Shown in pieces: positions 17,416-34,621 of a DNA stretch of 64,000 bases. The DNA comes from Pseudobutyrivibrio sp. YE44 (lineage in GTDB: Bacteria > Bacillota > Clostridia > Lachnospirales > Lachnospiraceae). A program made the translations under genes and the position numbers. Position 1 is the first letter of the stretch; each line of letters begins with the position of its first letter. Location: NCBI RefSeq assembly GCF_900104335.1, contig NZ_FMXT01000011.1:1-64000 (forward strand), given 5' to 3'. Below the pieces are notes generated by a model. It made no database searches. It saw only the letters and a program-made list of their open reading frames with translations, and was not told the origin of the DNA.

Positions 17416-17420
17416 ATCTA

Positions 17421-17528
17421 ACGTACTAGCGAAAAGCTAATACCAAATTTTTCATAACTCAGCGACCAAGGGCAACTTTGGTCGCACTCCCCGAACTTTC
17501 ACCGGCGCCTTCAAGCGTCGGTTTTTTA
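17421..17528 (+). ncRNA. Candidate small RNA of about 108 nt
   Basis: This lies between a good promoter and an intrinsic terminator and has no ORF. It contains a perfect 8-bp hairpin GCGACCAA/TTGGTCGC (17462-17485), then a single-stranded CTCCCC (17487-17492) complementary to Shine-Dalgarno sequences. The terminator hairpin is ACCGGCGC/GCGTCGGT (17501-17522) with a T run. This design (exposed C-rich stretch next to a hairpin) is typical of trans-acting small RNAs in Firmicutes. No known RNA family is recognised. Confidence 0.5.
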
Positions 17529-17550
17529 ATGTCCATTTCCCCGCTATTCA

Positions 17551-18298
17551 CACCCTCTATCTTTTTTATATGCCAAGGCTCCCCTGCCCATATAATCCAG
17601 CCCCCGCATTACGACCTCCCTTGTAGTTACTAGTGCACAGCCTCACCTGCTGCTCCACCCGGGCCCGCCACTTATGTATTAACATGATTGAAAATGAATT
17701 TTGTATTTTCTTAATGCTACAAACGAGCTTTTGGTAGGTGTCTTTTATTTGGTGTTGCACTTTGAAGCTACTGTATGTATAGCTCAGACACTTATAGGTT
17801 AAAATAATGCTCCTCATCAGGGGATATAACTATCAGTTGCTTCCATACTCCGTTTGCTAAGTAAAATTTAAAAAGCAGGTTTTGAATGTGTAGTCACCGT
17901 GGCACATTCAACATCGTGTCTCAAGTGACCACTGCAGCCGCCGTCCTAGCGACTGCTGCCTATACATACAAAACCTGCTTTTTATTTTACTAAGCGCACT
18001 TCAAATTCCAGCAACTGATAGTTATATCCCCTGAGGAGAAGCATTACATAAAATAGAGTGTGTCTGAGAAATACATACTGTAGCACCCAAAGTGCAATGA
18101 ATATAAAAGACACCTACAATAAAGAAAGCGCAGTGTAGCATTTAGAAAATACAAATTCATTGACACTGTTAATACATAGGTGGCGGGCCCGGGTGTAGCA
18201 GCAGGTGTAGCTGTGAACAGAATTAATAGAGGGAGGTCGTAACGCGGGGGCTGATTTAATGGGCAGGGGAGCGTTGGAAGGGGCTAAACTGGAGGGTG
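17551..18298. repeat. Giant foldback element, copy A (about 748 bp imperfect palindrome)
   Basis: The left half (from CACCCTC at 17551) and right half (to GAGGGTG at 18298) are reverse complements with moderate divergence, centred near 17925. Easily seen mirrored pairs include CACCCGGGCCCGCCAC / GTGGCGGGCCCGGGTG, GGGGATATAACTATCAG / CTGATAGTTATATCCCC, and AAAAAGCAGGTTTTG / CAAAACCTGCTTTTT. The centre (about 17894-17959) is a non-palindromic 66-base loop with its own hairpins. Copy B at 33883-34617 has the same core in opposite orientation. The outer arms of A and B differ, while roughly 350 central bases are conserved. No ORF is credible; a short minus-strand ORF near 17566-17817 is an accident of the arms. 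Confidence 0.92.
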
Positions 18299-18319
18299 GG
18301 AATAGTGATGGGAATGGGG

Positions 18320-33880: not shown

Positions 33881-33882
33881 AA

Positions 33883-34617
33883 CCACGCAAACCTGCGGCT
33901 CTTTTGATATCTCAAGGGGGCCGCTTTTTCTATGCCCACTCGCCGTCCTTTTACCCCCGCCTGCCCCGCCCCAGCCCCGGCACCGACCAATACGGCACAC
34001 CTGTTATCACAATCGCTAAACGTTGGTTTTCTAATTCCTGCTTTTCGCTTTTTTATTAGTGAGTGTTCTTTCAATTTATTGCACTTTTATCGCTACTGTA
34101 TGTATTGCACAGACACACACTATTTTTTGTAATGCGCCCCATCAGGATATATAACCATCAGCTGCTGGAATTTGGAGTGCGCTTAGTAGAATAAAAAGCA
34201 GGTTTTGTATGTATAGGCAGCAGCCGCTAGGAAGGCGGCTGCAGTGGTCACTTGAGACACGATGTTGAATGTGCCACGGTGACTATACATTCAAAACCTG
34301 CTTTTTTAATTCTACTTAGCAAATGGAGTATGGAAGCAACTGATGGTTATATATCCTGATGGGGCGCATTGTTTGAATTCATAAGTGTCTGTGCAATACA
34401 TACAGTAGCTTCAAAGTGCAACACCAATGAAAGTACACTCACAAAAGCTCAAATTGCAGGAATAAGAAAACCTAACGTTTCGCTCAAATGATGATAACAG
34501 GTGTGCCGTATTGGTCGGTGCCGGGGCTGGGGCGGGGCAGGCGGGAGACTTTGGAAAGCTGAGTGGGCATAGAAAAAGCGGCCCCAGGAAAGAGTCAGGA
34601 GCCGCAGGTTTGCGTGG
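33883..34617. repeat. Giant foldback element, copy B (about 735 bp imperfect palindrome)
   Basis: The left end CCACGCAAACCTGCGGCT (33883) is the exact reverse complement of the right end at 34617. Mirrored arms continue inward (GCCCCGCCCCAGCCCCGGCA, AATACGGCACACCTGTTATCA, CTACTGTATGTATTGCACAG) to a centre near 34250. The central loop (about 34216-34281) is the reverse complement of that of copy A with only two differences in 66 bases. Arm sequences next to the core are also shared with A, but the outermost arms are not. The ends contain GCGGC/GCCGC hairpins with TTTTT on both strands, so they act as terminators for cysE (left) and hypA (right). Confidence 0.93.
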
Positions 34618-34621
34618 AACT

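Follow-up and report, generated by a model that had tools for sequence, protein, structure and literature searches.

The foldback at positions 17573-18277 of the window (the whole stretch of 64,000 nt analyzed here) belongs to a family of dispersed intergenic foldbacks. We lean towards reading this family as one that carries a CsrA-sponge RNA at its tip, and the tip is most likely the functional part of the foldback. A TwoAYGGAY RNA (RF01731) would be read from the minus strand, present GGA motifs in its hairpin loops and in an internal loop and bind CsrA, and the transcripts of the approximately 29 copies per genome would together act as a sponge for this protein. The long stem would hold the tip out, its upkeep and extension taking place mainly at the DNA level.

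The foldback combines a shared inner part with locus-specific outer arms

The left arm (approximately 17573-17896) pairs with approximately 17957-18277 in successive blocks of 78-95% complementarity. Compared with its own reverse complement, 17573-18277 showed 75% identity ungapped and about 84% over aligned columns, and the single-strand fold of 17540-18310 reached -436 to -439 kcal/mol, whereas dinucleotide-shuffled sequences gave -207 +/- 7 (z of about -33 for both strands). The first-pass annotation had described two reverse-complementary halves around an unpaired centre, and this architecture was borne out, as was the sub-stem that it quoted (AAAAAGCAGGTTTTG with CAAAACCTGCTTTTT), but the arms are imperfect and the structured centre, given as 66 bases with one hairpin, measures 60 nt between the arms and forms two hairpins when read on the minus strand.

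The 748-bp interval that had been taken as one unit does contain the foldback, but mixes two layers, a 480-bp inner part common to the copies and outer arms unique to the locus. The outer arms of the family are near-perfect inverted repeats, and the sequence of those in the window copy is absent elsewhere in the genome; matches of the other copies to the query begin exactly at 17683 or close to it, the first of them at 17658. An 83-aa ORF in the left arm had no Pfam match. The features are as follows:

17573-17682, no strand: left outer arm, C-rich (45% C), pairing with 18163-18277, sequence of this locus only
18163-18277, no strand: right outer arm, rich in G and complementary to the left one (from arm pairing)
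17683-18162, no strand: inner element, with similar sequence at about 29 scattered genomic places; identity 85-92% for the best full-length copies
17845-18006, minus strand: core of the TwoAYGGAY (RF01731) structured RNA, a variant; it scores 48.3 bits, the gathering threshold being 43
17934-17959, minus strand: first tip hairpin, GCAGCAGUC[GCUAGGAC]GGCGGCUGC, loop with AGGA (alifold structure)
17899-17932, minus strand: second tip hairpin, loop CACGAUG, without GGA in the window copy (comparison of copies)
17839-17855, minus strand: AAACGGAGUAUGGAAGC, 3' side of the conserved internal loop, with two more GGA motifs (comparison of 16 copies)
17501-17527, plus strand: left border of the insertion, formed by the intrinsic terminator of a conserved but unrelated gene of sRNA type
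33881-34621: second family copy in the window, taking up all of the space from cysE (plus) to hypA (minus), core about 34027-34470

The sRNA-like gene (17416-17530, plus strand) has its own terminator and sits between the foldback and a methyltransferase gene. Over about 75 nt it is 90-100% identical in 27 of 28 other Pseudobutyrivibrio genomes and it is absent from 60 genomes of other genera; it is often, not always, near hypB, and had no Rfam match above cut-off.

A dispersed intergenic family with empty sites in relatives

The source genome comprises 3.24 Mb in 28 contigs, and about 29 distinct places in it resemble the inner 480 bp, most full copies being 81-92% identical; this number is approximate because some contigs end inside copies. 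Total foldback length ranges from 600 to 1100 bp, of which 480 bp are common. Among 99 genomes searched at blastn level, matches came from 24 of the 28 other Pseudobutyrivibrio genomes and from none outside the genus. The tip pattern is present in Pseudobutyrivibrio xylanivorans DSM 14809 and Butyrivibrio fibrisolvens 16/4.

Intergenic space is mostly taken up by the foldback, which at many convergent loci ends approximately 30 bp or less from both stop codons, while some copies sit between divergent genes. The second copy in the window, between the convergent genes cysE and hypA, is flanked on both sides by near-identical inward terminators.

An insulator (one of the earlier suggestions) or a two-way terminator between genes might be expected to look like this, as the element often fills the whole space of convergent genes and the two inward terminators at convergent loci have a common locus-specific sequence, left and right being mostly alike locus by locus. 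These terminators nonetheless accompany only those sides of the element at which a gene ends, and therefore belong to the flanking genes; we rejected them as a part of the element because they track those genes. Considering also that the same gene pair lacks the element in relatives and that copies occur between divergent genes, the insulator found no positive support and we regard it as highly improbable.

Empty sites, which the first-pass annotation had proposed to look for, were found in relatives. In one relative (G017), cysE and hypA are 4 bp apart from stop codon to stop codon, versus 741 bp in the source genome, this relative being too diverged to judge the insertion junction or a target-site duplication. 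As only 4 bp separate the coding regions at the empty site, we rejected the idea that the outer arms are copies of the target flank. Upstream of hypB, a strong foldback was found only in the source genome and G010 among 29 genomes; at one locus without it (L067), the hypB leader begins right after the terminator of the neighboring sRNA-like gene, and two further loci (L060, L045) also lack the foldback. At one convergent gene pair, the source-genome locus L003 has a 726-bp foldback region and its counterpart L207, in G018, only 330 bp.

An assembly artefact has next to no probability. Some contigs do end inside copies, but the same architecture recurs inside contigs of many independent assemblies, including assemblies of one to three contigs, and the arms are diverged, 75-90% complementary rather than 100%. 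One 94-kb contig (C15) carries the same copy with the same flank at both ends (L007, L008), so that the contig is either a circular replicon or was cut at the repeat during assembly.

The tip is a variant of the TwoAYGGAY RNA family with GGA in its loops

The minus strand of 17845-18006 matched RF01731 over the cut-off (local search E = 1.7e-6). With the same model, 7 copies of the source genome were reported in the family-set search, in which 17 of 120 genomes were positive, the highest copy number reported for one genome being 21. In the Clostridia, 38 of 391 genomes from many families were positive, 27 of them over cut-off. This agrees with the known distribution of TwoAYGGAY in human gut samples and Clostridiales (Weinberg 2010, PMC2864571). 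The sense strand was assigned from the tip loops together with the Rfam model.

We then compared the loops. The window copy has UAGGAC as its first loop and no GGA in its second (CACGAUG), and we filed this copy as a TwoAYGGAY variant because its loops differ from the naming motif AYGGAY. Three sister copies (L018, L022, L024) have a GGA in the second loop, CAGGACG, their AYGGAY-type loops being CA(C/U)GGAC and CAGGAC. Most copies of the source genome keep AGGA in the first loop and have lost GGA from the second, and most have two GGAs in the conserved internal loop, which are invariant or nearly so in 16 copies. The internal-loop sequences are kept between copies. Among 16 paralogous copies, 47 of 158 consensus pairs of the inner element showed two-sided changes.

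Outside the genus, 43 matches in 12 other Lachnospiraceae genera have tip hairpin loops that are mostly A-N-GGA-U (ATGGAT 23, ACGGAT 9, AAGGAT 8), and one loop region (L094), GUACAAGGAUGU, is an exact match to the CsrA SELEX consensus RUACARGGAUGU; the hexaloop bound by CsrA/RsmE is ANGGAN (PMC7652899). On the basis of the motif, TwoAYGGAY was already predicted in 2015 to bind CsrA (PMC4333381). In the cores of other genera, ANGGA occurred 80 times in sense and 27 times in antisense, with 30 expected by shuffling. In the source genome, the cores have 54 GGA in sense versus 4 in antisense and 23 ANGGA, slightly above the shuffled mean of 17. GGA motifs fall in predicted loops on the TwoAYGGAY strand. 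Tip stems are 7-13 bp, longer than most SELEX ligands. The same plan is seen in other genera and families, with arms extending approximately 25-560 bp beyond the Rfam model, strong in some and weak in others. In other genera, TwoAYGGAY is often arranged as -/+ pairs 300-450 bp apart (L143, L144, L159, L082/L098).

Several points speak against the sponge: a promoter scan of the arms and element revealed no convincing promoter and nothing inside, the window copy is without the second-loop GGA, the tip stems exceed most SELEX ligands in length, and ANGGA is only slightly above shuffle in the source genome. In addition, the tip is antisense to both neighbors in three of four copies between same-direction genes, so that read-through would not yield the sense RNA.

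Most genomes with TwoAYGGAY encode CsrA

A CsrA-sequestering RNA needs its partner in the same genome, and CsrA is indeed encoded in the source genome (G000:C12:92104-92259). Every one of the 17 genomes with TwoAYGGAY in the family set had CsrA, versus 49 of 103 others (Fisher p = 2e-5). The Clostridia class set gave 33 of 38 versus 92 of 353 (p = 2e-13), a difference that held for genomes at least 90% complete (28/30 versus 82/288, p = 2e-12) and among the sampled Clostridia genera, where CsrA was present in 23 of 23 genera with TwoAYGGAY and in 54 of 199 without (p = 2e-12). Five genomes with TwoAYGGAY were exceptions (G361, G402, G441, G458, G501); three are under 90% complete, and CsrA is present in other sampled genomes of their genera. 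These are counts by genome and by genus, and motility or shared ancestry may be an alternative source of the association.

The arms point to copying at the DNA level

Beyond the common 480 bp, each copy goes on as an inverted repeat of its own sequence. A subgroup of five copies (L009, L010, L011, L015, L016) has a recognizable common AT-rich outer motif, and in most of the other outer arms the 5' side is rich in C and the 3' side in G (window G+C 40%). When 17 copies were compared with gaps counted, arm complementarity was 75-79% in the inner part and 69-90% over the first 80 columns of the outer part; a younger or more perfect state of the outer arms was not supported (median 0.80 versus 0.77).

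We asked whether the whole stem could be selected for pairing as a very long structured RNA of at least 700 nt, which had been among the first proposals. Pair-by-pair selection at the RNA level is expected to raise G-U on the transcribed strand. Results showed that G-U and A-C make up 26 and 23 of 2449 inner arm pairs (1.1% versus 0.9%, the alignment treating both strands alike), giving no strand signal from G-U counts for the inner arms, and 17 and 38 of 1544 outer arm pairs (1.1% versus 2.5%). In nine tRNAs, G-U reached 7.0% and A-C 0, the G-U share differing from that of the arms (p = 2e-7). The TwoAYGGAY strand thus shows no G-U excess, which argues against such selection; in the outer arms, mismatches on this strand even lean to A-C over G-U (38 versus 17, p = 0.006), a lean that favors the plus strand.

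Changes between copies were also informative. Paralogous copies differ by double Watson-Crick changes in 111 cells versus one-sided changes in 62. In contrast, orthologous copies of the close species G012 and G019 showed only one-sided changes in 4 of 5 loci (20 G-U, 17 A-C and 38 other mismatch cells, no double changes). Orthologues thus accumulate one-sided changes, suggesting that selection on the stem is weak. Conservation of the orthologous elements (0.947-0.973) was roughly on a level with that of the flanks (0.898-0.960). At the fifth locus (L185/L203), the outer arms are replaced and rearranged. As the orthologous pairs were one-sided in 4 of 5 loci, we withdrew a model of continuous concerted evolution of the arms, which the double changes of the paralogues had suggested, in favor of episodic replacement.

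The two-sided changes in 47 of 158 pairs and the conserved internal loops are what a long RNA would predict, but the absence of G-U excess on either strand, the one-sided orthologue differences with mismatch types alike and outer arms without common sequence between most loci make RNA-level selection on the whole stem improbable. The structured-RNA proposal stands for the tip, as an Rfam family, and not for the arms.

The data point to arms made at the DNA level rather than kept by pair-by-pair RNA selection, and fit arms made as inverted copies, with slow decay and replacement at intervals. Arms would arise in this way probably through template switching at replication or through recombination of one arm with another; point mutations would then erode them until they are replaced, each locus on its own. 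Footprints of this kind are known to result from template switching (PMC8794818; PMC8604942). Those predicted are arm homogenization, inversion of loop or spacer and perfect stems in one event, and at the hypB locus of G010 the element has an inverted tip and new arms, nearly all different in sequence yet self-complementary. The structures covered by that literature are rRNA hairpins and short inverted repeats, whereas the arms here span hundreds of bases and switching would be their presumed origin. More tentatively, these may be self-rebuilding palindromes, in which the functional RNA tip stays the same and arms of 100-400 bp are rewritten time and again as new, near-perfect inverted repeats, separately at each locus and out to the stop codons of the adjoining genes, giving dozens of hairpins with a shared tip and different stems.

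Comparison with mobile repeats and known RNAs

REP/BIME/REPIN and ERIC are dispersed, multi-copy intergenic palindromes. The present family resembles them in this respect and, if it were a selfish non-autonomous DNA repeat (MITE- or REPIN-like) whose hairpin is recognized by a transposase, its RNA likeness would be incidental. The approximately 29 dispersed intergenic copies with empty sites, the closely spaced -/+ pairs in other genera and complementarity without strand preference would all fit, and part of the first-pass proposal of a transposase-less foldback element is thereby retained, as the element is dispersed, multi-copy and intergenic. Other results fit poorly. The REP-mobilizing Y1 transposase (PF01797) expected of a REPIN/RAYT system is in only 10 of 29 genomes of the genus, with only fragments in the source genome. 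No fixed ends, MITE-type terminal inverted repeats common to the copies or target duplication were found, the ends differing at every locus. Phage and plasmid collections gave no match at blastn level and no transposase or mobile-element similarity was detected, which does not support a known insertion-sequence derivative. The foldbacks are also far longer than REP-type repeats, with locus-specific outer arms and a tip that is an RNA family. Finally, a selfish repeat predicts neither the CsrA association nor CsrA-type loops, and we consider it unlikely.

CsrB/CsrC and RsmY/RsmZ are CsrA-type sponges of gammaproteobacteria. Under our preferred reading as a CsrA-sponge tip on a DNA-level stem, the family shares with CsrB/CsrC and RsmX/Y/Z the GGA in hairpin loops, relatives having ANGGA hexaloops. 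It differs in consisting of many dispersed copies with 1-3 GGA sites instead of one or two many-site RNAs, in its long foldback stem with no promoter or regulator identified, and in its occurrence in Clostridia. With TwoAYGGAY itself the family has in common a core that scores above the gathering cut-off, a single stem bearing two tip hairpins and GGA in one or both loops, but the Rfam model covers 168 nt, while here the shared stem is 480 bp and the total 600-1100 bp with locus-specific outer arms, and the window copy departs in both of its tip loops. The first-pass statement that no described element matches thus fails for the tip, already known as RF01731, and stands for the long locus-specific arms, of which we found no description as far as searched; literature on long palindromes in Pseudobutyrivibrio or Lachnospiraceae yielded nothing relevant.

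Implications

If the sponge reading is true, Clostridia would control CsrA by tens of dispersed RNA decoys, where the gammaproteobacterial model has a few RNAs with many sites each. An RNA family that has been without a function since 2010 would then gain a testable role, with co-occurrence in 23 genera. The arms suggest that in bacterial chromosomes long palindromes, which are usually regarded as unstable, can arise anew and be replaced with their complementarity kept. This would make the arms a natural test case for whether template switching gives rise to perfect stems.
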